DNA from: Gordius sp. MW1
Taxonomy: Eukaryota; Nematomorpha; Gordioida; Gordea; Gordiidae
DNA length: 64,000 nt
Assembly: GCA_964036665.1 (NCBI GenBank)
Contig: OZ038527.1
Span: 26,564,901 to 26,628,900, forward strand
Direction: 5' to 3'
The position numbers and the translations under genes were made by a program. A model generated the notes under the pieces. It saw only the letters and a program-made list of their open reading frames with translations, did not search any database and was not told the DNA's origin. Position 1 is the stretch's first letter. Each line of letters starts with the position of its first letter. Below are positions 4,113 through 62,253 of the stretch, one piece after another.

Positions 4113-7100
4113 CTGTCGTCATATATGTACATTTTATTTAATAACATTTAATCTAAATATAATTATTAAATTTGATAAAGAGCGTTTATTAAATTTCACA
4201 CCTTTAGGATATAACAGATTGAAAATGTTGTCTTAAAGTATATATTAGTTCTTTCGAGTAATACATATAACTTTTTGACCTAAGTTATCAGTAAAATGTT
4301 TAAATTTCACTTCTGGTTGTCGATTTTATAAGAATTAAAGTTAAAAGCCATAAGATAAATAAAGTGTCTAAAATATTGCAAGATGTACTTCATGTTATTT
4401 GTAGCGTCAAATTGACAAATATATAAAAAGAAACTCGGGCCTTCGGCCCTCGTGGGAAGGGGGAGAAGGGAAGGGAAGAGGGGAAGGGAAGGGGGGACGA
4501 CTCATCTGTACTTCGTATAAATGTATCATATTTGCTATGCAATTTATGGGCGAGAAAGGTGGGAAGGGGCGAGAATGCCTATGGGGGTATTAAATGCCTA
4601 ATGATTAATTAATTATTTATACAAATTTTCCATTATAGGCAAAATGATATAGGCAAAATGTAATATAGGCAAGGGTTAGGGTTAGATTTAGTGTTTGCAT
4701 CTAGTTGTGTATTACATTAGTTTTTATTGATTATGGGTCTAACAAACATTATATTATAAAACAACACAATGTTAAGAATTTGCAGAATTGTTGGGAGAAA
4801 TGTTTAATTTGAACAATTTTTAATTAAAAAAATTAAAAATTTGGCCAATGGTCACTTTTTCTCTATTGGTCAGTACCAACAGATACTCTATAAGTCAATG
4901 ATAGCCAAAAAATGGAAAAAAAACTTTTGATGCTCACTTTGGCCAATGGTCATTTTTTTCCATTGGTCAGCAGCCAGGACACGGTAAAAGTGGATATAAA
5001 TTCATAAGAGTAAAAAAAAACGAAAAAAAAATTTCCAAATCACATTTTGGCCAATGGTCCTTTTTTTCCATTGGCTAGCAGCCAGGACACGGTAAAAGTG
5101 GATATAAATTCATAATAGTCAAAAAAAACGAAAAAAAAGTTTTCGAATCACATTTTGGCCAATGGTCATTTTATTCCATTGGTCAGCAGCCAGCGGACGG
5201 CCAAAAAGTGATAATAGCAATGGTAGGAACAGGAACAATCATAATAGTCAAAAAAAAAACGAAAAAAATATTTTCGATTCACATTTTGGCCAATGGTCAT
5301 TTTTCCATCGGTCAGGAGCCAGCGGACGGCCAAAAAGTCATAATAGCAATGGTAGTAACAGGAACAATCATAATAGTCAAAAAAAAACGAAAAAATAAAC
5401 TCGGATTCACATTTTGGCCAATGGTCATTTTAAAGTCTTATTATCAATGATAGTAACAAGAACAATCATAAAAAACCCGGGATTCTAACCCAAAAACTAG
5501 TTAAATTGCATAGCAATTAAAAGTAAACAACTTTTATTTATGTTTATTATATAACGGCCAAAAAGTCATAATAGCAATGGTAGAAACAGGAACAATCATA
5601 ATTGTCAAAAAAAACGAAAAAAATAATTTCGATTCACATTTTGGCCAATGGTCATTTTTTTCATTGGTCAGCAGCCAGCGGACGGCCAAAAATTCTTATT
5701 ATCAATGATAGTAACAAGAGCAATCATAAGAGTCAAAAAAACTCGGGATTCTAACCCCAAAACTAGTTAAATTGCATAGCAATTAAAAAGTAAACAACTT
5801 TTATTTATGTTTATTATATAACTAGTTAAATTGCATAGCATTAAAAGTAAACAACTTTTATCTATGTTTATTATATAATAGATAATTTAACAAATCTTAT
5901 ATATAACACACCGAGGGAGATAGAGATGAGGGGTGGGGCACCTCTTTCTCATGCATTAATTTAAAAAAGCGATAACCTAATATACCCAATGCAAATAGAT
6001 AGGGAGGGTAACGGACAACGGACGGACGGACACCAAAAAACGAGCCCATAAATTGCATAGCAATTAATAATTATTATCTAGCATAATTGTGAGGATAATT
6101 CCTTAACCCCCATAAGAATGGGTTTAATCTAATTTGGCCTTATTTATACCCTCGCTTATGTGACCTGAAAATTAACTATGACATACTGATGAGCTCCAAT
6201 AAGAACGAAAATGTTATATGCCTGTTATCATTTTCCACATGCTAAAAAAGATAGGGATATATATAGTCAAATTAGTCTCTAACCAAAATTGCCTCTAGAT
6301 GGGGCTTAACATTTAAGTTAATTGAGGCACTTATGAATGGGGTTATTATTATCTTCTTCAAAATAGTTCTATTTTTAATTGCTATGCAACTTATGGGCTC
6401 GTTTTTTGGTTGTCCGTTGTCCGTCCGTTGTCTACCCTCCCTATCTATTTGCATTGGGTATATTAGGTTATCGATTTTTTAAATTAATGTATGAGAAAGA
6501 GGTGCCCCACCCCTCATCTCTATCTCCCTCGCTGTGTTATTTTTTAAATTAATGCATAAGAGGTGCCCCACCCCTCATCTCTATCTCCCTCGCTTTCGGG
6601 CGGGGTCGGGTTTTAATTGCTACGCAATTAATTAATGCATAAGTATATCTATTCGTTTTTGAATTGGGTAACATTGATATTAATTGCTATAATTACTCTA
6701 TGCCCTCCACTACAAGGGTTTGGGTTAGAATCTCGGAGTTTTTTTAGACTCTTATGATTGTTCTTGTTACTACCATTGATAATAAGACTTTTTGGCCGTC
6801 TGCTGGCTGCTGACCAATGAAAAAAATGACCATTGGCCAAAATGTGAATCCGAGTTTATTTTTTCGTTTTTTTTGACTATTATGATTGTTCCTGTTACTA
6901 CCATTGCTATTATGACTTTTTGGCCGTCTGCTGGCTGCTGACCAATGAAAAAAATGACCATTGGCCAAAATGTGAATCCAAGTTTATTTTTTCGTTTTTT
7001 TTGACTATTATGATTGTTCCTGTTACTACCATTGCTATTATGACTTTTTGGCCGTCTGCTGACCAATGAAAAAAATGACCATTGGCCAAAATGTGAATCG

Positions 7101-10100
7101 AAGTTTATTTTTTCGTTTTTTTTTTGATTATTATGATTGTTCCTGTTACTACCATTGCTATTATGACTTTTTGGCCGTCCGCTGGCTGCTGACCGATGGA
7201 AAAAATGACCATTGGCCAAAATGTGATTCCAAGTTTTTTTTTCGTTTTAGTTTTGACTATTACGATTGTTCTTGTTACTATCATTGATAATAAGACTTTT
7301 TGGCCGTCCACTGGCTGCTGACCATTGAAAAAAATGATTGGCCAAAATGTGAATCCGAGTTTATTTTTTCGTTTTTTTTTTTGACTATTATGATTATTCC
7401 TGTTACTACCATTGCTATTATGACTTTTTGGCCGTCCGCTGGCTCCTGACCGATGGAAAAAATGACCATTGGCCAAAATGTGAATCGAAATTATTTTTTT
7501 CTTTTTTTTTTACTATTATGATTGTTCCTGTTCCTACCATTGCTATTATGACTTTTTGGCCGTCCGCTGGCTGCTGACCAATGGAATAAAATGACCATTG
7601 GCCAAAATGTGATTCGAAAATTTTTTTTTCGTTTTTTTTTGACTATTATGAATTTATATCTACTTTTACCGTGTCCTGGCTGCTGACCAATGGAATAAAA
7701 TGACCATTGGCCAAAATGTGATTTGAAAATTTTTTTTTCGTTTTTTTTACTCTTATGAATTTATATCCATTTTTACCGTGTGCTGGCTGCTGACCGATGG
7801 AAAAAAATGACCATTGGCCAAAGTGAGCATCAAATTTTTTTCCCCGTTTTTTTGGCTATCATTGACTTATAGAGTATCTGTTGGTACTGACCAATGGAGA
7901 AAAAATGACCATTCGCCAAATTTTTGATTTTTTTAATTAAAAATTGTTCAAATTCAACAAAAAATTTCTCCCAACAATTCTGCAAATTCTTAACATTGTG
8001 ATGTTTTATAATAAAATGTTTGTTAGACCCATAATCACCAAAGGCCGTAAAAACTAATGTAATACGCAACTAGATGCAAACACTAAATCTAACCCTAACC
8101 CTTGCCTATATTACATTTTGCCTATATTACATTTTGCCTATAAATGGAAAATTTGTATAAATAATTAATTAATCATTAGGCATTTAATACCCCCCTATAG
8201 GCATTCTCGCCCCTTCCCACCTTTCTCGCCCATAAATTGCATAGCAAATATGATACATTTATACGAAGTAAAGATGAGTCGTCCCCCCTTCCCTTCTCCC
8301 CTCCCCCTTCCCACGAGGGCCGAAGGCCCGAGTTTTTTATTATACTATCGATATAAATGAATAATACACGTTAAAACGTACTGTCCGAATCCCGAGATGA
8401 AATCTTTCAGGGTTTGGCAACAGACTAGACGCGCCTCTAAACTCATGACAAGCGGAGTTTGGGGGTTAAACAAGATGCTTTCTTCTAAGAATCTCTTTAG
8501 CTCAGCCGGCTCGAGCTGGGGTAGGTAGATAAAGCATGGTTTAAGGCACAACAATGCACTTTCAGGGTCTAGCAATCCGCTTTTATTAGGGGGAGTGTCC
8601 ATTTCTTTCCCCACTTCGGCCCAAAACAATTGCTCAGCTCGGGCTAGGTAGAGCAAACTAGGCCCAATTTTCAGATTTTTAGGACCGCTCAGTACTTCCT
8701 TCAAGTAAGACTCTTCAGAACTAACTTGCTCCACGATTTGTGATTCCAGTAGTTTCGCAATCCGTTCAATGTCTTTGTCATTACGTTTAGCGATAACAGA
8801 TTTCAGGTTGGTTATCGCGGCCCTATAACAAAGATCATCGCCGCTACTAGTGGACGAGGGTTCGACGTTTAGAAAGAGAGAGCCATAATCTAGGCCCGGA
8901 CAAAGCTCACTAATAAAACCCAGCCGAGCAATGTGTTTATTCAATAGATTAATCAGGTTTGGACATCTTTGAGAAATTATAAATTTTAACGCCGTCATGA
9001 GGGTACCGAGGCGTTTGTAATCGTCACCGGCTATTAGAGGTAAGGTATTTCGAACTATTCTATTGGCCATATCTATTATATCACCCCCTCGGTCACCACA
9101 CATTTCCAGCATGGGAGGTATCAAGTCGATTCGAATTCTTCTCAAATTATCCTCCACGTTACTCGACCTGTTATAATACGCACGGCGTTTAAATTAATTC
9201 TTATGGCATCATTGAATAAAAGATGAAAAATAACAAAAAAATTTGTTCAAAACTTAATAATGAATAAAAATTTAAAATATTTCAAATAATATATATATAA
9301 ATTACTCGTTATCCGTTAGCAGAAACTCCAAATGGTTTATGTAAATTTCCAATGGTTTTACATCGAATTGCTGAGCAATCTTTAAAGTATCGACAAACAC
9401 TTCGGGCTTTGAGGTCAAAGCCAGCCCGTTTAACGTATCAGCTCTATACTCTCCGGACGTTATGAATTGATCTACGTTTATGTCTAATAAATTTTTAAAA
9501 TTAATAAAATATTTAATATCAGCTAATATTTAACTTTAAATCTAGATGCTTTTTACAATATAAGAAAGACTTGGCATTCTTATTATCAAATACAACTTTG
9601 AATGAATTCTTGGTGACTTTAGGATGGCGATTATTTTGTATTTTAGTTTTCGCAAATAAAGTTTTTATGCATATTTTTATTATGGATATCAATAATAATA
9701 ATTCAATTTGCTTTTTAAATATAATTACATCGTTATTTATAACAGATAATACTACAAATATTATAATAAAATTTATCACTTTCATCTTCGCAAAATTATT
9801 ATTTATTTAGAAATAATAAATGAATTTCAATATTACTAAAAATAAAAATGTTTTGCCTTTATTCATCGATGAAATAGCCAAGGCATTTCTGTAATGGATT
9901 AAGCGATCGTAGCATTTGGAAAGGAGCTCAAACAATACTTTCAAACGATTTTTGTTTTCCTCGGGGATATTTTTGGCGTAAGCAAACGATAATTCACAAT
10001 TTTCCAATACAGAACGGGCCAATATCATTTGTTCGAATGGAGTATGATGTGTTTTGTAGATTTTAACCGTTATATTGATGCTGAGGGAATAAACTAAAGT

Positions 10101-34639: not shown

Positions 34640-34872
34640 GGAACCTTTACAATTTACTTATGTAATAATCACATTTATATTGTTAAATTTATACAATTTA
34701 GTACACTAATCTCTTCAAATATTAATTATAAATTTATGCAATAAACCATTTAGTACACCCTTTACAATTTACTTATGTAATAATCTCATTTAAGTTGTTT
34801 AATTTATACAATTTAGTACACTAATGTCTTCAAATATTAATTATAAATTTATGCAATAAACCATTTAGTACA
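34640..34872. repeat. two ~118-bp direct repeats near MULE 3' end
   Basis: Two units containing TTTACAATTTACTTATGTAATAA and ATTTATGCAATAAACCATTT, mirrored at 39535-39765 in the right arm. Next to them (34440-34610) is an inverted, decayed fragment of the element's own FLYWCH exon, so the 3' end was rearranged before the palindrome formed. Confidence 0.75.
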
Positions 34873-34913
34873 CTATATCTACAAACAATGCAGTCTTAAT
34901 AGAGTTTATTGAT

Positions 34914-37497
34914 TTACATATTAATATAATTACAAATGGAATCTAAAAATTCAAAACAATCTATTTCATCTCTTTTATAATGTAATTGTAAACACCTAAT
35001 TCTTTGGGCTTTAGCTTCCAGCTTTCTTTGAACTTGATATAAAATATTGCCATTGTTTATTTGTATAATTTTTGTTTCCATATTCCTTTGGTGTTCTTTT
35101 AAAGTTTGGATAAAACTATAAATATTTGGATGTGGCTGCTTTACTAATTTCTTCATGGCATTATGAAATCCTTCCAGATGGTTATTAGTACTCATACCAG
35201 GAGCTTCATACTTTTGCCATAAATTATATGGAAATTTTGCATTATCATCCACCCAAACATTTTTAACGTATCTCAAAAATCTTTTCAAATTGACATTATT
35301 GAGATTTTTTGAGGAAGTCATACATTTGTTATAAACTATATCAACATCTGTTTTCCTGAGATATGGTGTATTGCATATTTCCTTGATAACTGTTCTGATT
35401 GTTTTGTCTTCAATGTATAGTTTAGCAAGGCCCAATTTCTTAGCTTTGCCAATTACAGCCTGGGAGAAGTGGAAGTAGCAACCTAGTAAGAATTTATTTT
35501 ACTACATAATGTATAAATTTTACCTTGAATTATAATGTCAGGGAATATGATTTTTAGGGCTTTAATGGAAGCCATCTCAAAATCCACTTGCCAAAACATA
35601 GGATTAAATGTAAGTCCTATAGAACTGCACACTTGTCTAAGGCTTGTAAGAAATTTTACGTATGTCTTTGAAAATTTATTGGGGAGAATACCATAAATTG
35701 TTGGTATCATGTGGTTCTTATAAACAACATGAATAGTGTACACCTAAAATGTGTGAATATAAAGTTTAGTTTATGTACTTGATAAAAAAGGTCAGGGGTT
35801 ATATAGAAGGTTCCATCTGAATAAACTTTGTTGGCATCACACATAATCTTCAAAAATTTAGGTGTTCCAAATATAAACAAGCTATTGTCCAAATTTTCTA
35901 ATAAAAAGGGAGTTCCATTCTTCAGATAGTGGCAGTCTAGGGGCAATATTATCTCTTCAATAGTTCTTGGAATTTTGGGTCTATTTTTATGCAATGTTCT
36001 CTTCATTGTTCGTTTCATTGACTTAAAAGATGGTAGAGCATGTGGATATTGCCATATATCTTCCACTTCTTCACGTCTTTGGTAAAGTACATCATTGTAT
36101 ACCTAATTGGATTAATGATTCCCTGATTTTAAATATGTTAAAATTACCTTTGATATTGATTCCAAAGGATTATTATTAATGGCCTCCTTTAATTTATACT
36201 TTGTCACTAAATATTGAATCTCATCAGTTTCAGGTTCATGGTTATGATTGTTTTTTAATTTAGCTATATTTTTACAATATATTAATCTGCAAGGACATTT
36301 TGAATTTCTGCATCTATAGTAAGTTGTAATTTTTGTAGTTTTGTCAACGACATATAGATAATCATTGAGCCTCAAGATTGTTTTTCCTTTTTGGGATGGG
36401 ATAAATTGTATATCTAAAATATTTGGGGGTTATACTAATTAAAACTAAACAAATCTACTTTGTGAATTTTCAGCTAGCGCAGGGGTTGGTTCATCATCAC
36501 CCTGTTTAGGGGTCTCCTTTGTTGGCATCACACATAATCTTCAAAAATTTAGGTGTTCCAAATATAAACAAGCTATTGTCCAAATTTTCTAATAAAAAGG
36601 GAGTTCCATTCTTCAGATAGTGGCAGTCTAGGGGCAATATTATCTCTTCAATAGTTCTTGGAATTTTGGGTCTATTTTTATGCAATGTTCTCTTCATTGT
36701 TCGTTTCATTGACTTAAAAGATGGTAGAGCATGTGGATATTGCCATATATCTTCCACTTCTTCACGTCTTTGGTAAAGTACATCATTGTATACCTAATTG
36801 GATTAATGATTCCCTGATTTTAAATATGTTAAAATTACCTTTGATATTGATTCCAAAGGATTATTATTAATGGCCTCCTTTAATTTATACTTTGTCACTA
36901 AATATTGAATCTCATCAGTTTCAGGTTCATGGTTATGATTGTTTTTTAATTTAGCTATATTTTTACAATATATTAATCTGCAAGGACATTTTGAATTTCT
37001 GCATCTATAGTAAGTTGTAATTTTTGTAGTTTTGTCAACGACATATAGATAATCATTGAGCCTCAAGATTGTTTTTCCTTTTTGGGATGGGATAAATTGT
37101 ATATCTAAAATATTTGGGGGTTATACTAATTAAAACTAAACAAATCTACTTTGTGAATTTTCAGCTAGCGCAGGGGTTGGTTCATCATCACCCTGTTTAG
37201 GGGTCTCCTCATTAGCATCTAGTAACAATTCTCAGTAATAAAATTTCAACTTCTTAAGAATAATTTATAAAATGTTTTTACTTTGTTGATCCCTTATAAT
37301 TGTAGAGATGTTTTTAACAAGTGTGGTATTTGTTCCATTTAGTTTTTCATTTGATGCTAAATTTTATAAATAAAGCTATATTATGTTACTTGGTGCAGGG
37401 ATTGGTTGATCATTACCCTGTGTAGGGGTCTTATCATTAGGTTCTAGTAAGCAATTATCAGTAATAACTCGACTTAGTTTTTCATTTGATGCTAAAA
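34914..37497 (-). pseudogene. MULE transposase, left-arm copy with internal tandem duplication
   Basis: Mirror image of the right-arm gene, with identical predicted peptides for the FLYWCH exon (36375-36112), the first MULE exon (36066 downwards), the middle exon (35743-35483) and the C-terminal exon (35435-34914). A second copy of the FLYWCH exon and part of the first MULE exon occurs at 37066-36803 and 36757-36506. That duplication stops the first MULE exon inside the DANK motif, so the normal mRNA order is broken unless the extra exons are skipped. Confidence 0.82.
35827..37208. repeat. 691-bp direct tandem duplication in left arm
   Basis: 35827-36517 is repeated at 36518-37208 at a constant offset of 691 bp. 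The two copies encode the same 87-residue FLYWCH peptide. The right arm has only one copy, so the duplication arose after the arms formed, or was lost from the other side. Confidence 0.9.
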
Positions 37498-37611
37498 TTT
37501 TATAAGTAAAGCTGTATTATGTTACCTTGAATACAATTTTCAGAATGCTCAGTTGTGACTTTGAAATTACTATTCTTCAGTATACCCCAGCTTTACTTAT
37601 AAAATTTTAGC

Positions 37612-39497
37612 ATCAAATGAAAAACTAAGTCGAGTTATTACTGATAATTGCTTACTAGAACCTAATGATAAGACCCCTACACAGGGTAATGATCAACCAA
37701 TCCCTGCACCAAGTAACATAATATAGCTTTATTTATAAAATTTAGCATCAAATGAAAAACTAAATGGAACAAATACCACACTTGTTAAAAACATCTCTAC
37801 AATTATAAGGGATCAACAAAGTAAAAACATTTTATAAATTATTCTTAAGAAGTTGAAATTTTATTACTGAGAATTGTTACTAGATGCTAATGAGGAGACC
37901 CCTAAACAGGGTGATGATGAACCAACCCCTGCGCTAGCTGAAAATTCACAAAGTAGATTTGTTTAGTTTTAATTAGTATAACCCCCAAATATTTTAGATA
38001 TACAATTTATCCCATCCCAAAAAGGAAAAACAATCTTGAGGCTCAATGATTATCTATATGTCGTTGACAAAACTACAAAAATTACAACTTACTATAGATG
38101 CAGAAATTCAAAATGTCCTTGCAGATTAATATATTGTAAAAATATAGCTAAATTAAAAAACAATCATAACCATGAACCTGAAACTGATGAGATTCAATAT
38201 TTAGTGACAAAGTATAAATTAAAGGAGGCCATTAATAATAATCCTTTGGAATCAATATCAAAGGTAATTTTAACATATTTAAAATCAGGGAATCATTAAT
38301 CCAATTAGGTATACAATGATGTACTTTACCAAAGACGTGAAGAAGTGGAAGATATATGGCAATATCCACATGCTCTACCATCTTTTAAGTCAATGAAACG
38401 AACAATGAAGAGAACATTGCATAAAAATAGACCCAAAATTCCAAGAACTATTGAAGAGATAATATTGCCCCTAGACTGCCACTATCTGAAGAATGGAACT
38501 CCCTTTTTATTAGAAAATTTGGACAATAGCTTGTTTATATTTGGAACACCTAAATTTTTGAAGATTATGTGTGATGCCAACAAAGTTTATTCAGATGGAA
38601 CCTTCTATATAACCCCTGACCTTTTTTATCAAGTACATAAACTAAACTTTATATTCACACATTTTAGGTGTACACTATTCATGTTGTTTATAAGAACCAC
38701 ATGATACCAACAATTTATGGTATTCTCCCCAATAAATTTTCAAAGACATACGTAAAATTTCTTACAAGCCTTAGACAAGTGTGCAGTTCTATAGGACTTA
38801 CATTTAATCCTATGTTTTGGCAAGTGGATTTTGAGATGGCTTCCATTAAAGCCCTAAAAATCATATTCCCTGACATTATAATTCAAGGTAAAATTTATAC
38901 ATTATGTAGTAAAATAAATTCTTACTAGGTTGCTACTTCCACTTCTCCCAGGCTGTAATTGGCAAAGCTAAGAAATTGGGCCTTGCTAAACTATACATTG
39001 AAGACAAAACAATCAGAACAGTTATCAAGGAAATATGCAATACACCATATCTCAGGAAAACAGATGTTGATATAGTTTATAACAAATGTATGACTTCCTC
39101 AAAAAATCTCAATAATGTCAATTTGAAAAGATTTTTGAGATACGTTAAAAATGTTTGGGTGGATGATAATGCAAAATTTCCATATAATTTATGGCAAAAG
39201 TATGAAGCTCCTGGTATGAGTACTAATAACCATCTGGAAGGATTTCATAATGCCATGAAGAAATTAGTAAAGCAGCCACATCCAAATATTTATAGTTTTA
39301 TCCAAACTTTAAAAGAACACCAAAGGAATATGGAAACAAAAATTATACAAATAAACAATGGCAATATTTTATATCAAGTTCAAAGAAAGCTGGAAGCTAA
39401 AGCCCAAAGAATTAGGTGTTTACAATTACATTATAAAAGAGATGAAATAGATTGTTTTGAATTTTTAGATTCCATTTGTAATTATATTAATATGTAA
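37612..39497 (+). CDS. MULE transposase, right-arm copy (5' truncated, otherwise intact)
   Basis: Cut-and-paste transposase for the MULE element. Predicted exons: about 37612-37712 and one or two further acidic N-terminal exons to about 37948, then 37998-38263 (FLYWCH zinc finger: GKTILRLNDYLYVV, YRCR..KCPCR, HNHEPE), 38309-38632, 38668-38887 and 38929-39497. The MULE catalytic domain is spread over the last three. The first Asp is in YSDGTFYI, the second in QVDFEMAS, and the Glu is in the NNHLEGFHN motif, after the CYFHFSQA Cys/His motif. Introns are 35-50 bp. No start codon lies in this arm; the first exons appear on the opposite strand at 40.2-40.4 kb. Without them this copy is probably not autonomous. 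Confidence 0.85.
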
Positions 39498-40156
39498 ATC
39501 AATAAACTCTATTAAGACTGCATTGTTTGTAGATATAGTGTACTAAATGGTTTATTGCATAAATTTATAATTAATATTTGAAGACATTAGTGTACTAAAT
39601 TGTATAAATTAAACAACTTAAATGAGATTATTACATAAGTAAATTGTAAAGGGTGTACTAAATGGTTTATTGCATAAATTTATAATTAATATTTGAAGAG
39701 ATTAGTGTACTAAATTGTATAAATTTAACAATATAAATGTGATTATTACATAAGTAAATTGTAAAGGTTCCACCCAAATATAGCTCTTGAGTACATAATA
39801 CCCAAACATTATTGTATACCTAATAGGATTAATGATTCCCTGATTTTAAATACGTTAAAATTACCTTAGATATTGATTCCAAACGATTATTATTAATGGC
39901 ATCCTTTAATTTATACCTTGTCACTAAATATTAATACTCATCAGTGATCTGTAAATAAAGCTATATTATGTTACTTGGTGCAGAGGTTAATTAAATGTGA
40001 TTCTTACATAAGTAAATTGTAAAGGGGCACCCAAATCTTGCTCTTGATTATGGATAAAACTTTAAAATTAAAAAACATATGGAAATTTGAAAATCGTAGC
40101 AGTAGCATTATTGTAGCTTCGGGATTGTGCCTTTTCGGGATTTAGCCTATATCCCC

Positions 40157-40387
40157 ATTTCCTGCACTTGTAATACACCTGTCCAAGTTTTCCATCTTTA
40201 ATTTTGGTATAATCCAAGTCTTTATGGGTCAGAATCAAATTTTTTCTACTCGACTTTTTAAATTCTAAAGATAATTTATAAATATTTAGATATTAAGCTT
40301 ACTTATACTTTCTGTATTATCTTGATTTGTTCTCTCAACCAAATATTCATTAAAAGCTTGACTATATGATTGCATATTTTTTACCAT
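40157..40387 (-). CDS. 5' exons of the MULE transposase (first FLYWCH finger, cut by the palindrome)
   Basis: An ATG at 40387-40385 opens an exon starting MVKNMQSYSQAF, followed by a GTAAG donor, a short intron and an exon ending in the FLYWCH-type YYKCRKWG at the palindrome border. The spacer at 37588-37515, read on the same strand, continues this finger in frame and ends at a GT donor. The fragment therefore looks like the original N-terminus, separated from the rest by the inserted inverted copy. Confidence 0.6.
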
Positions 40388-43787: not shown

Positions 43788-44371
43788 AAAAGTAACAAAG
43801 AGTCAAAAAAATATAATAGCATGTGTGCTTATAAAAATGATATTTTTTGTAAAATAATTTTCATTTTATCTTAACCTCAACACAAGCTAAATAATCTACT
43901 ATTGCTTAAATTTAAACAAAAATATAGATTATAACAAAATGTTAAACATATGCCCAAAATAGGTCATAAATACGTTACTAGTCTTTTACTACGTTATTAA
44001 TATCACATTAAATTTATATTATCATTTATTCTTTTAACTTTATTATTAATTTATCATAATTCATAATAATTATTTTTATGGTGTATTTCCCTTCATGTAT
44101 GCCGCAAACTAAATTTATAACCTAATCAAGATTTAAATGACATCTTAACTATGGGGATACAATTATTATAGAACTTTTCTTTGATAGGCGTTACTTCAAA
44201 TCCATCTTTTTTTTAGGTTTAAGGGTTTTTTGCGAAAAAATAACCAAACAGAATTAAATGGCGAAGTACGTCTTAGTTGGTTCAATATCAACATAAATAA
44301 AAAGGTTAGTAAATATGCTATATATGTAATGCAAATTTAAAGATTTTAATTAAATAAAAGAATGGATTACT
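43788..44371. other. A+T-rich stretch downstream of the micro-exon gene
   Basis: Presumed 3' region of the micro-exon gene at its upper end. No other gene or repeat family recognised. Confidence 0.5.
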
Positions 44372-45132
44372 TCATTCGTCATCTATAAATTGAATAGCAT
44401 AAGTAATATTGATCCTAAATCAATTGATAACATTATTAAAAATAATGCTTACCATCATCATCTCCTAATTTTTAATTGTTATTAATATAGATCAATCGTT
44501 AATATTTTAATTACAATTAGTATTATTTTAACATAGGGTATTGTGTAAATTTAAAATACCATCACGGTCATCTAAATAAATATGTGAAAATATTTGAAAT
44601 TATAGAAATATGCGTAATATACAATTACCCAAATCATTATCATCGTCTCCTAGGTAAGCTTTAAATCAGTAATTTTTTTATTTAAATATAAGGTAATACG
44701 AGTAGATAATTAAAATACCATCATTAGGCACCATTGTTATTTAATTTGTTGTGCTTGGAAAAAACTTAAGTGTTGAAACAAAGTTTCAAAGTATGCTCAT
44801 GAATGTTTTATTATTGTATTTTGAAGTTTTAGGTTTTATGTAACATTTTGAGTCGCTGAAAACATGGGTTTGGTCATGAACAAACTGCGCAAAGAGAGAA
44901 GTCTTGATAAATAATTCGTATAAATATTTAATTAATTAACATAATCGGTGGTTAAATGTCATCAATTAGAAATTTTTAGTGATTTTTATAAGTTGTGATG
45001 TAAAAGCTTTTATTTATAATTTATAATGTAAATTAATTGTGTGGTATATTTGTCTGGCTCATTACCTTTTTCAAGATAAGCCATGGTTAAAGCAATCATG
45101 AAAAGCAGGATTAACAAATGAAAGATTTTCAT
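44372..45132 (-). CDS. micro-exon gene encoding a small secreted Asp-rich peptide (predicted)
   Basis: Five predicted exons: 45132-45066, 44649-44629 (21 bp), 44571-44560 (12 bp), 44464-44453 (12 bp) and 44382-44372 (ending in TGA). Exon 1 encodes MKIFHLLILLFMIALTMA, a classic signal peptide, followed by YLEK. Every internal exon starts and ends in phase 1, is flanked by AG and GT, and adds a few residues rich in Asp and Gly (GDDDNDL, DDRD, GDDD), ending DDE-stop. The product is about 40 residues, with a mature acidic peptide of about 22. Introns are 416, 57, 95 and 70 bp. This is the architecture of the micro-exon genes described in parasitic flatworms: signal exon plus symmetric micro-exons that can be skipped without a frameshift. 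A decayed extra micro-exon may lie near 44,717-44,735. Function is unknown. With so little coding sequence, chance is the main alternative. Confidence 0.62.
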
Positions 45133-46411
45133 TTTTTATACTTTCCCTTTATCAAATCTCTGGAAACATAAAAAGAATATTATCTATTCTTTTTTTATAT
45201 TTATTTAATTATTTTTTAAATGTAAGCTGTAACAATTGTATATACATTATGATCGCACTATAAAAAGTGATTAATTAACGATGACAATAGCTATTTTAAA
45301 TTCATTATATGCATTAATTTCACGCATAAATTTAGTTTAGTTCTTTAAATTTATATAATACTAATCATGACTTACGGTTTAAAATTACGGGAACTTGGCA
45401 GGTAAGTGTTTTACTACATATTTAGGTTTATAGATAGCCTATAATTTGCTTAATAGGTTTATAATTTGGCAAGCTACATAGATAGTAGTAATTATTGGCA
45501 TGTAATATAAAAATATAACCTAAAATCCCAATTATGTGTTGTGCTTATATATGTGACTTTCGTACAAAAATATCAAACAAATTGAAAATTTTAAATCTGT
45601 GAGCATGGTTTAGACTTTTTCATGGATACCATTTTCCAGAAAAAGACTACTTTAAAAAAATAGAATTATAGTTAGTTTTTCATATGCGTGGAGTTTGTAA
45701 TTTTTTAATCATCTCGCAATTTGTCTGAAACAGTAGTTTATGAAATTCTGGTTAAACAATAATAATTCATTGAAAAAATAACGGGGAATATGTACATAAT
45801 ACATATTACCATTGGTTGTTATGTAAATCCCATAAACCTATTTGCTCCATACAAATAGGTTTGTATATTAATGACGGTTATAAAAACATCTAGTGTAGTG
45901 TTTTAATACCACGCTTATTATAGGGATGAGTGATAAAATATAGCGTTTCCAAATCTGGCTTTCATTTTTATAATTATATAAGAGATGCATAAGCTTATCG
46001 ATACTATTGTTCCCTTCACGTTGCTGATGCTATTCATTCTTATAGGAATGGCGGGTAAAAGGAATGATCATATGGCGCTTAGCACTTAGCTAGACTATAA
46101 TTCTATATACTCATCATTCTAGTCTAGATGTTAGCTAATAGCTCTTTCTTATTAGATAGTTAACCATAATAAACTTATAATATGCAAACTTTCTTACAAA
46201 TTAAAACTTTTCATTAAATGATCCTAATCAAAGATGGCATTTGCACTTCAAGCAAAGCACTTAATTGATGCCAGCTCATTAATTTAATATATTTTAGCAT
46301 GCAACGTACATAATTATTTGGAAATAAACTTCTATCGATTAAAAAAAAATTTGCACTTATATTTAAATACTTTTCTGCATAGCTAAAAAATTTAAATTTA
46401 AGATTAACATC
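45133..46411. other. upstream region of the micro-exon gene
   Basis: A+T-rich, no open frame or known repeat. Would contain the promoter of the predicted secreted-peptide gene. Confidence 0.45.
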
Positions 46412-53896: not shown

Positions 53897-56800
53897 TCAT
53901 TCGGTGCTTAAAAATTGACGCTTTTTAGAGGTGTTCATGTATGGTTTGAGACTCCATTCGGATTCAGAAATTGCAGCGGTATCAAGCGTACCCAATTTGA
54001 TTTCGTACACTAAAGTTTGTCGTAAAAAGTTATATAAACATAATGCATTTTTAAATTCATCTCTCATATATCCAAGTTATTATAGAAAAAGTAAAGTCTT
54101 GCACGGTTAATTTTCAAAAAAAATTAGGCCTTAAGCAACTTTGTAAGAAATGTCATATTTATCTAGATCAGAACAATCTTTATTTTATCGTGAATATAAT
54201 CGTTATTTCGAAAAGATCACGTAAATGTGGTATAATTAAGGGAATCACGATTTTCTAAATTCTTCAGTAACACGCCTTTAAAACCTATAAAGCATTTTAA
54301 TTGTTATGCAATTTATGGGTTCGCTTTTGGTTGTGCGTCCATCCGTCCTGTCCAACTTGTAATTTTTAAACAACTGCCGTCGAGACTTATACGGTTTTTA
54401 ATGGCTGCGGACTTTTGCCTCTGTAAAAGACTTTTATTTTACTTTCGCAAATAGACTAGCTAATGACCGCTGATTGGCTTTAAATTTTTGATCGAGAGAT
54501 CGATATAGGTAAAAGTAATTAAAATTAATAACGTCACTAACATTCCCTATTATTATTGTGGTCGTCAAATTCAAACGATAAAATAGTCGAGCCAAAAGCG
54601 GGTTAGCAAGACCCTCTCAAAAAATGATGAGAGACAATCGAATTAACGCATTTAAAAACCATTTATAACCATAGCTTAGCTAAGGTGTATATGTAGGTAA
54701 ACTAGTTTTGTCCAAACGGCTGGGTTTTGCTTGGTTAACTTGTCGACTCAAGTCTGTTTTCAAATTTTGACTAAGCCTAGAGGTCGACCAAGAAAAACAC
54801 AAAAAATTTTTGGTCCGTGTATGTTTGGTCGACTAAACCTAAAGGTCGACCAAACAAAATCCAACCCTTTTTACGATACTAACATGCACATATAATGAGG
54901 CTAATTGAAAAAAGCGCACAATCTGACACCTACATTTCATTTCGAATCGCGGTCCGACCTCGTTCAATTGCACAACGCCTTCGTTCCTCGTGTAAACGTG
55001 ATGTCTAAAAGGCAGTTCCCAAAAAACCAAACAAAATCAATAAAAATAACACATCATAAAATTATATTTCCCCAGGAATTCAACAATATACTAGCATTAG
55101 GTAAAAAGCAAGACAAACTCAATAACAAAGTAGAGGGGAAAGGACTGCAGGTAGTGTTGTAAAAACGGCTGTGCTTCGTTTGGTCGATCTTTAAGTGGCA
55201 TAAAATGTTTAGTCAACTAAAACCAAAGATCGACCAAATCAACCATACTACAAATTAGGTGAAAACGAGACAAACTTAATAAGGCCTGAAGGTATTGTCG
55301 TAAAAAAGGCTAGGTTTTGTTTGATTGACCTTCGGTTTTGGTCGACTAAACGTAAACAGGCCTCCGTTTATGCGACTAAGACCAAGAAAACCCAGCAGCC
55401 GTTTTTACGAAACACTACCTGAAGGAAATGTAGTCGTTTTGGTTGTAGAAAGTAACGATTCTTTTGCTATCTTCCTTGGGTACGGGGAATAAATGTTTCA
55501 AGATGGTTGTCACACGCTTGCCCAAGACACTTTTAAAATTGTGAAATATGAGGTGAGGATAGGCCTCCGACATGGGGGCCATGTTAGGAATATCGTGTCT
55601 CATAACCACGTTTGACAAGTTGAAGTATGCCGTGGGACCGAAGGGCAAGTGACATATTTGTACGTTATCTGATGAAAATAACAAACACAATAAAATTTAT
55701 GATAGTGAAACATGATCATAAAACTAAAGCTAGTAGATTTACTTTTTAAATAAGATTTAAAGTATAAAACTTTTAATGACTAGATCTAATTTGAAAGATC
55801 AAAGTGTAACAAGTTGTTGAAATGCAATCAAACATATGAGGCAGTCATGTGCCGTTGTAATAGCATTGTAAAAAGGGCTATGTTTTGTTTGGTCGACCTT
55901 TGATTTATGTTGACTAAACACAGGCAGACCATAGGTTTGACCAAAAAGTCTTTGACCTGTTTATGCTAACAAAAATAGATTAAAAAACCTTTAGTATGTT
56001 TATGTTTAGTCAACCAAACTAAAGGTCAACCAAACAAAACCCAGCCCTTCCTACAACACTACTTTGTAATGTCGTATTGTTAAAACATGTTATAGTATAG
56101 ATGGTGTGAAAAGGCACCAGTATTACATAATCTTATATATGTTTGATAATTTGCAAATGAGCTTTGCTATAAAAGTGAGATGATACCTGGTTGTCCACGG
56201 GTTTCGTGAACTAATATGAAGTCTGTCACTTGGTTTTCCTTGCAGGCATCCAACAAATTTTTCAGCTCGTAATGGCCTCGATTTATTCGTTGAGAATTGG
56301 GGAACAAAAGTTTTAGTTCCTTTGTGCATAACACCAAAATATAATTATGTTTTGGCTACTTCATTTAATTCCACATGAAAAATGAATTTTAATAGGATAT
56401 TATATGTAAAATGTTTAAAAATTGATAAAAAATTAGAAAATCACTCACATAAACTAAGTAACTTCTGAATATTTGGAGAATTTTTATAGGATATTTAAAT
56501 TAAATAATGACATTAAATTACAACTAATATTACTTTGGTAAATTGTTTTAGCTTGGAGCTAGGATCTCTTGAAGTAGTTATGACAATCTTTGGGTCCTCA
56601 ACTCCTGCAAACCTATACTCATCGTCAATATCTACACCTTTACAAATAATAAATATATTAGAAGCAGACATTAAAATGGCATAGGGCAAATTTAATTAAT
56701 ACAAAATATTCATTGATTTGAAGGATAAAATACCAACTAGACTTAGTATTATAGCTATGCTGAATATTATTAATTTTAAAACTATATGCAAAATAAGATT

Positions 56801-59675: not shown

Positions 59676-61441
59676 TCTATATATATAAAGTAAAGTGTAT
59701 GTATGTATGTATGTATGTATGTATGTATGTATGTATGTATGTATGTATGTATGTATGTATGTATGTATGTATGTATGTATGTATGTATGTATGTATGTAT
59801 GTATGTATGTATGTATGTATGTATGTATGTATGTATGTATGTATGTATGTATGTATGTATGTATGTATGTATGTATGTATGTATGTATGTATGTATGTAT
59901 GTATGTATGTATGTATGTATGTATGTATGTATGTATGTATGTATGTATGTATGTATGTATGTATGTATGTATGTATGTATGTATGTATGTATGTATGTAT
60001 GTATGTATGTATGTATGTATGTATGTATGTATGTATGTATGTATGTATGTATGTATGTATGTATGTATGTATGTATGTATGTATGTATGTATGTATGTAT
60101 GTATGTATGTATGTATGTATGTATGTATGTATGTATGTATGTATGTATGTATGTATGTATGTATGTATGTATGTATGTATGTATGTATGTATGTATGTAT
60201 GTATGTATGTATGTATGTATGTATGTATGTATGTATGTATGTATGTATGTATGTATGTATGTATGTATGTATGTATGTATGTATGTATGTATGTATGTAT
60301 GTATGTATGTATGTATGTATGTATGTATGTATGTATGTATGTATGTATGTATGTATGTATGTATGTATGTATGTATGTATGTATGTATGTATGTATGTAT
60401 GTATGTATGTATGTATGTATGTATGTATGTATGTATGTATGTATGTATGTATGTATGTATGTATGTATGTATGTATGTATGTATGTATGTATGTATGTAT
60501 GTATGTATGTATGTATGTATGTATGTATGTATGTATGTATGTATGTATGTATGTATGTATGTATGTATGTATGTATGTATGTATGTATGTATGTATGTAT
60601 GTATGTATGTATGTATGTATGTATGTATGTATGTATGTATGTATGTATGTATGTATGTATGTATGTATGTATGTATGTATGTATGTATGTATGTATGTAT
60701 GTATGTATGTATGTATGTATGTATGTATGTATGTATGTATGTATGTATGTATGTATGTATGTATGTATGTATGTATGTATGTATGTATGTATGTATGTAT
60801 GTATGTATGTATGTATGTATGTATGTATGTATGTATGTATGTATGTATGTATGTATGTATGTATGTATGTATGTATGTATGTATGTATGTATGTATGTAT
60901 GTATGTATGTATGTATGTATGTATGTATGTATGTATGTATGTATGTATGTATGTATGTATGTATGTATGTATGTATGTATGTATGTATGTATGTATGTAT
61001 GTATGTATGTATGTATGTATGTATGTATGTATGTATGTATGTATGTATGTATGTATGTATGTATGTATGTATGTATGTATGTATGTATGTATGTATGTAT
61101 GTATGTATGTATGTATGTATGTATGTATGTATGTATGTATGTATGTATGTATGTATGTATGTATGTATGTATGTATGTATGTATGTATGTATGTATGTAT
61201 GTATGTATGTATGTATGTATGTATGTATGTATGTATGTATGTATGTATGTATGTATGTATGTATGTATGTATGTATGTATGTATGTATGTATGTATGTAT
61301 GTATGTATGTATGTATGTATGTATGTATGTATGTATGTATGTATGTATGTATGTATGTATGTATGTATGTATGTATGTATGTATGTATGTATGTATGTAT
61401 GTATGTATGTATGTATGTATGTATGTATGTATGTATGTATG

Positions 61442-61472
<31 letters not shown>

Positions 61473-62253
61473 GTGTGTATGTATGTGGGGGCTAAATTCT
61501 GAAACTACCGGCCCGATTCGCGCGATACCTTACCCGTAGGTTCGGCCAGGGGTAAAAAAGCTTTTTCAGATTCCTAAAATACCTTTTCGTTTCAAAAAAA
61601 TCGAACATTTTGTTTTAAAAAAGGGCTAAACTCTGAAACTACCGGCCCGATTCGCGCGAAAATTTAGCCGTAGATGCCCAGGGCGGCCAGGGGTAAAATA
61701 GCTTTTTCAGAATCCTAAAATTCTTTTTAGTTTTAAAAATATCGGACATTTCCCGTCCAGTTTTATTTATAGCATCATATACAATAGTGACGTCATACAT
61801 ACAAGGTTGAAGTTTTCTCGAATTAGATATTTAGAAATATAATAAAAATGTTACAGTATACGGTCAAAATTATTTTAAATTAAATAAATAAAATTTAAAT
61901 TATGCAATTTTTGCCATTATTATCACGTGGTCGATCTTTCATATTCCTAAAATACCTTTTCGTTTTAAAAATATCGGACATTTCGTTTTAAAAAAGGGTT
62001 AAACTCTAAAACTACCATCCCGATTCGCGCGAAAATTTAGCCGTAGTGCCCAGGGCGGCCAGGGGTAAAATAGCTTTTTCAGATTCCTAAAATACCTTTT
62101 CGTTTTAAAAATATCGAACATTTCCCGGCCAGTTTCATTTATAGCATCATATACAATAATGACGTCATACATACAAGGCTGAAGTTTTCTCGAATTTTAT
62201 TATATTAGAGAAAATTGTATTTTTAGCAAAACAACGTTTGCCGGGTCAGCTAA
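59676..62253 (+). mobile_element. non-autonomous Helitron carrying a giant microsatellite
   Basis: Begins A|TCTATATATATAAAG and ends GGGTCAGCTAA|T. Upstream of the CTAA end is the short hairpin GCAAA-acaacg-TTTGC (62226-62241). These are the diagnostic Helitron features: 5' TC, 3' hairpin, CTRR, A/T target. Between them are about 1.8 kb of (GTAT)n and three diverged units around ACTACCGGCCCGATTCGCGCG or its variants (from 61488, 61624 and 61992). Confidence 0.8.
59697..61471 (+). repeat. perfect (GTAT)n microsatellite, about 444 copies
   Basis: About 1,775 bp of uninterrupted tetranucleotide. It creates three overlapping frames of repeating MYVC, not genes. It starts 21 bases after the Helitron 5' end. 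Confidence 0.98.

Follow-up and report, generated by a model that had tools for sequence, protein, structure and literature searches.

A candidate micro-exon gene of the hairworm Gordius sp. MW1 and its predicted secreted acidic peptide

Our analysis of 64,000 nucleotides of the Gordius sp. MW1 genome (the window, i.e. the whole stretch of DNA that was studied) points, with moderate confidence, to a genuine gene of the micro-exon type that would encode a secreted acidic peptide. Its plan would be convergent with that of the schistosome micro-exon genes (MEGs) and of the aphid cassette effectors. The coding strand of the locus is the minus strand (45132-44372). An earlier note on this DNA, which gave no strand, had proposed a micro-exon gene for a tiny secreted acidic peptide, and this is still the best reading of the sequence, with in-frame skipping of exons being possible. 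The exon plan given there, a signal exon followed by pieces of 21, 12, 12 and 11 coding bases that are all joined in phase 1, holds on the minus strand: the coordinates are correct, and every junction splits a codon between its first and second base. The joined exons E1 to E5 translate to MKIFHLLILLFMIALTMAYLEKGDDDNDLDDRDGDDDDDE, followed by a stop codon. Two of the features listed below, the upstream acceptor and the GTAATC after the stop codon, were absent from the earlier note.

45160..45161, minus strand: splice acceptor AG 5' of the ATG (TTTTTATGTTTCCAG); score 6.82, in the top 0.07% of background AGs
45133..45159, minus strand: 27 bases of exon 1 that are predicted to be 5' UTR, between the upstream acceptor and the ATG
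45066..45132, minus strand: E1, putative signal-peptide exon, 67 coding bases, MKIFHLLILLFMIALTMAYLEK plus 1 base; from translation, with a donor GTAATG in the top 1.2% and passing a simple signal rule
44629..44649, minus strand: E2, 21-base symmetric micro-exon, GDDDNDL; from translation, splice scoring and background comparison
44560..44571, minus strand: E3, 12-base symmetric micro-exon, DDRD; also one of 6 genome-wide matches to the acidic pattern
44453..44464, minus strand: E4, 12-base symmetric micro-exon with a weak acceptor, GDDD; also one of 6 genome-wide matches to the acidic pattern
44372..44382, minus strand: E5, final 11 coding bases, DDE and stop codon TGA; from translation, with an acceptor in the top 2.1%
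44365..44370, minus strand: donor-like GTAATC, one base past the stop codon of E5; score 0.19
44345..44350, minus strand: ATTAAA, a possible poly(A) signal 22 bases past the stop codon; a motif that is frequent by chance in the AT-rich DNA here

The AG at 45160..45161 is predicted to be either the end of an intron in the 5' UTR or a trans-splice site. The 3' border of E1 reads AAAAAG/GTAATG (the slash marks the end of the exon), and E2, E3 and E4 are all bordered by TAG acceptors and GTA donors. From E1 to E5, the introns have sizes of 416, 57, 95 and 70 bases; those of 57 to 95 bases are plausible since our hand-made model of a neighbouring gene includes an 84-base intron. The three symmetric micro-exons (21, 12 and 12 bases) account for 45 of the 123 coding bases, and all eight combinations of skipped internal exons stay in frame, as had been claimed. 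Since a donor-like GTAATC begins one base after the stop codon, E5 may itself be one more micro-exon of 12 bases, with the stop codon inside it.

To score the splice sites, we used a generic consensus that was typed by hand and not trained on this genome. A self-trained splice model was dropped, as it was captured by tandem repeats with a unit of about 107-129 bases that are located at 4938-5432 and 6739-7853 of the window. As controls for the consensus, we used 9 donors and 10 acceptors picked by eye from one neighbouring gene, which we take to resemble NBAS; pieces of this gene gave no Pfam family, and the one piece that was compared with the PDB gave no match. The control donors score from -1.1 to 4.8 and the control acceptors from -4.9 to 7.1, and the sites of the micro-exons lie inside both ranges. 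Among all GTs, the donors of the locus rank in the top 1.2%, 4.4%, 8.2% and 0.6%; among all AGs, the acceptors of E2 to E5 rank in the top 6.5%, 4.8%, 48% and 2.1%. The acceptor of E4 is thus weak, because 48% of the background AGs score higher.

The earlier note had called for a signal-peptide prediction on exon 1; the predicted E1 peptide passes a simple signal rule and is signal-like by eye as well. Only 9 of 2242 open ATG frames of the background pass this rule. A phase-1 donor follows in one of these nine frames, a strong upstream acceptor is present in none, and none of them precedes two or more micro-exons. By eye, cleavage is predicted after TMA (residue 18); the first possible site according to the simple rule is after residue 16, a discrepancy that counts against the proposed gene.

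The most serious alternative is that AGs and GTs happen to frame clusters of GAT and GAC codons in AT-rich DNA and that nothing is spliced here. To evaluate it, we used a background of 468,000 bases consisting of both strands of 17 loci and of the 64-kb window, from which the minus strand of the locus was masked out, and divided it into 2282 overlapping windows of 780 bases. The micro-exon thresholds were set post hoc, at a level that barely lets in the weakest site (E4). At these thresholds, the locus has three structural micro-exons; all three consist of at least 50% Asp and Glu, and two of them of at least 60% (E2 has 57%). Chains of at least three micro-exons that are not acidic do arise by chance, as they were found in 12 of the 2282 background windows, and this favours the chance explanation; a chain of three was present in none of 3000 dinucleotide shuffles of the region. 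Only 2 of 197 background micro-exons contain at least 60% Asp and Glu, and no background window has two of these; 13 of the 197 have at least 50%, and 12 of these 13 are exons of just two residues. A strict pattern for acidic 12-base micro-exons, YAGRWGAYNNYGAYGGTA, has 6 matches in the 212 Mb of the genome (2 for the reversed control), and E3 and E4 are two of these six, at a distance of 107 bases. A hand estimate of such closeness (15 pairs x 214 / 2.1e8) yields about 1.5e-5, a value that is indicative only as the pattern was written from these very exons. We give no formal probability because the tests were post hoc and the background windows overlap. In the 695-base stretch, the minus strand contains seven GAYGAY motifs, of which six lie within micro-exons or at their edges, and the plus strand contains none; the density in the window, 0.5 per kb and strand, predicts about 0.35 for each strand of the stretch. 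A search of the window for tandem repeats reported none at the micro-exon stretch, and the Asp codons of the micro-exons are a mixture of GAT and GAC. Chance is also favoured by the weak acceptor of E4, by the presence of the locus in a single copy and by the fact that the earlier note came from scanning much sequence for oddities. For the chance explanation to be correct, however, the acidity, the reading frame, the splice borders, the signal exon and the upstream acceptor must all coincide. Judging from the sequence, it is therefore unlikely that the exon layout is accidental, and we regard it as improbable that no splicing takes place at the locus.

It is also conceivable that E1 is real and not joined to the micro-exons, being either spliced to other exons or translated as an unspliced single-exon peptide of 40 residues (MKIFHLLILLFMIALTMAYLEKGNEPDKYTTQLIYIINYK). 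The unspliced frame is indeed open for 40 residues, and the self match in the protein search covers residues 1-27; however, the donor of E1 is in the top 1.2%, and the acidic array would be left without explanation, so that we consider this quite unlikely. Slightly less credit still is due to the idea that the acidic stretch is the pro-region of a longer precursor, with the mature peptide encoded by an unrecognised exon. Acidic pro-regions are common in precursors of secreted peptides, and this idea gains from the donor-like site after the stop codon in E5 and from three more open frames in phase 1 between E1 and 39768, each at least 12 residues long and behind a fair acceptor; the longest of these frames has 65 residues and is located at 40264. 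This 65-residue frame, however, weakly resembles a nearby FLYWCH transposon piece (34% over 35 residues, E 0.014 in a single comparison), and the 40 residues of the joined peptide contain no dibasic processing site, a finding that also speaks against a neuropeptide precursor. We therefore prefer the micro-exon gene with five joined exons to either of these explanations.

The surroundings of the locus have features of their own. An inverted pair of a FLYWCH-containing element (Pfam), presumably MULE-like, occupies positions 34644-39767 of the window; its open frames are the same on the two strands. Upstream of the locus there is an IMP4-like Brix-domain exon (55415-55696, minus strand), and a TGTA tetranucleotide array of about 448 copies with 99% matches extends from 59696 to 61486. 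The only match in an Rfam search, with an E value of 0.77 and below the gathering score, lies outside the locus.

As far as the searches show, the locus is single-copy in the genome. A DNA search of the whole genome with the full locus found the locus itself only, as did a protein search of the genome with E values up to 10. The earlier note had proposed to look for other loci with the same signal exon, and a DNA search of the genome with E1 returned this locus alone. Near the four matches to the acidic pattern outside the locus (L029-L032), there is no second acidic micro-exon of more than two residues within 1200 bases. One of these four, L030, has two near-identical 12-base micro-exon look-alikes (GALD and GDLD) about 700 bases apart in what appears to be a repeated unit. 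The 15-base version of the acidic pattern has a single match in the genome, which is not mainly acidic.

The 12-base exons had been described as resembling one another, and the likeness was attributed to exon duplication. They do have GAY codons in common, but their flanks align no better than shuffles. When E2-E3 were aligned with E4-E5 including the flanks, 179 of 300 shuffles scored as high; for single exons, this was the case for 94 of 300 (E2/E4), 204 of 300 (E3/E5) and 222 of 300 shuffles (E3/E4). Because the exons share GAY codons but not their flanks, exon duplication is not borne out.

The assembly comprises 12 contigs with a total of 211.8 Mb: eight have 21-37 Mb, three are small, and one is the mitochondrial contig of 14,798 bases. 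The mitochondrial COI gene, which is divergent, reads well with code 5; the flatworm mitochondrial code does not fit because AAA must encode Lys in the COI motif TGIKIFSW, where we take the Lys to be a conserved site. We identified many nuclear copies of COI: there are 24 matches including the mitochondrial one, and one of them (C8:2829490-2830827) spans nearly the whole gene model. A search for the arthropod cuticle family PF00379 gave no match, and its controls gave none either. The order of the mitochondrial genes is cytb, rrnL, nad1 (minus), cox1, cox2, atp6, cox3, nad3, nad4L, nad4, nad5, nad2 (minus) and nad6. Here, genes were named by eye from their translations, fragments of rrnL were identified by Rfam on the minus strand, and rrnS and atp8 were not placed on the contig. 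For hairworms, passages in PMC10380579 give the order rrnL-rrnS-nad1, an inverted nad2 away from cox1, a conserved nad4L-nad4-nad5 block and, except in Chordodes, a conserved nad6-cytb pair. Within the distance searched, the mitochondrial contig contains 28 inverted-repeat pairs with a minimum length of 16 bases and arms of up to 108 bases; 23 pairs are 100% complementary, and several pairs apparently lie inside protein genes, as judged from frames read by eye. Perfect inverted repeats within mitochondrial genes have been reported for Nematomorpha in PMC6649704, where genes with repeats are noted for a few other invertebrates as well, so that the repeats would not be sufficient proof by themselves; PMC10380579 calls perfect inverted repeats of this kind exclusive to Nematomorpha. 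The mitochondrial contig is of the hairworm type, and its gene order agrees with that outlined in PMC10380579. This points to a freshwater hairworm, probably one outside Chordodes.

If the micro-exon gene is real, the transcript of this apparently single-copy gene would be spliced on the minus strand as drawn, from E1 to E5, and the signal peptide would be removed, by eye after TMA at residue 18. The product would be a disordered, strongly acidic secreted peptide with YLEKGDDDNDLDDRDGDDDDDE as the full form and a net charge of about -12; of the last 18 residues of the joined peptide, 12 are Asp and one is Glu. Inclusion or skipping of E2, E3 and E4 may tune length and charge with the frame being kept: the possible forms have 7 to 22 residues past the presumed cleavage site and charges of about -3 to -12. 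The likeliest biochemical property of such a peptide would be the binding of divalent cations or basic surfaces. Of these, metal binding is the most concrete guess since peptides with short Asp runs and a Zn-enhanced antimicrobial activity are known, i.e. the surfactant-associated anionic peptides (SAAPs; PMC8267837). These are ovine lung peptides, and their likeness to the predicted hairworm peptide, in which E4-E5 would give GDDDDDE, is compositional only. Hairworms develop as endoparasites of arthropods (PMC6649704), and one might speculate that the peptide acts towards the arthropod host; it might equally act inside the worm.

We put forward only tentatively the wider idea that micro-exon genes for secreted peptides arose independently in hairworms and that splicing alone determines how long and how charged an Asp-rich peptide is, so that a locus of 0.8 kb would yield as many as eight graded forms. 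To our knowledge, this would be the smallest such micro-exon gene. If correct, it would be another origin of micro-exon peptide genes, beside those of schistosomes and aphids, in a host-dwelling animal. Such a gene may well escape automatic annotation. With four junctions and eight possible forms, the locus is a precise and cheap target for hairworm RNA. Hairworms are the sister phylum of the nematodes (PMC11603191). Among the literature matches listed, none joined hairworms and micro-exon genes.

The earlier note had compared the locus with the micro-exon genes of parasitic flatworms. The plan is indeed alike, but this is analogy only, as neither the mitochondrial code nor the gene order is that of a flatworm. 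What the Schistosoma MEGs and the hairworm locus have in common is a signal peptide, in our case according to the simple rule only, and tiny symmetric exons whose omission leaves the frame intact (sections of PMC4350168 and PMC10526429). In S. mansoni, the 35 MEGs have 10-20 short exons and introns of up to about 5 kb (from the same sections), whereas the hairworm locus has five pieces, introns of 57-416 bases and one copy as far as searched, and lacks the 10-20 short exons between long introns given in PMC10526429. MEGs are described as restricted to platyhelminths, and Gordius is no platyhelminth, as seen from the mitochondrial code and the gene order. More generally, the known micro-exon families have multiple members, in contrast to the hairworm locus, for which the genome searches returned neither a second copy nor a relative.

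Among the aphid genes, bicycle genes encode proteins with paired CYC motifs, which are absent from the hairworm peptide, a peptide without Cys. As in the locus, internal exons of bicycle genes, there almost all of them, start at codon position 2, and many are micro-exons; unlike the locus, they form large families in aphids, phylloxerans and scale insects (sections of PMC9168663). The KQY and KHI cassette effectors of the pea aphid also begin with a signal exon followed by miniature exons, but they comprise several genes with a conserved KQY or KHI signal motif, up to 37 exons over tens of kb and products of 9.2-24.4 kDa (passages of PMC7495047). As compared with Table 1 of that paper, neither signal motif is present in the hairworm signal MKIFHLLILLF. 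As each of these classes differs from the locus in phylum, in exon number and intron length, or in the signal motif, and as no second copy was found, we do not assign the locus to the MEGs, the cassette genes or the bicycle genes. From these comparisons, the locus is probably a convergent variant of the micro-exon gene plan rather than a homologue of any of these genes.
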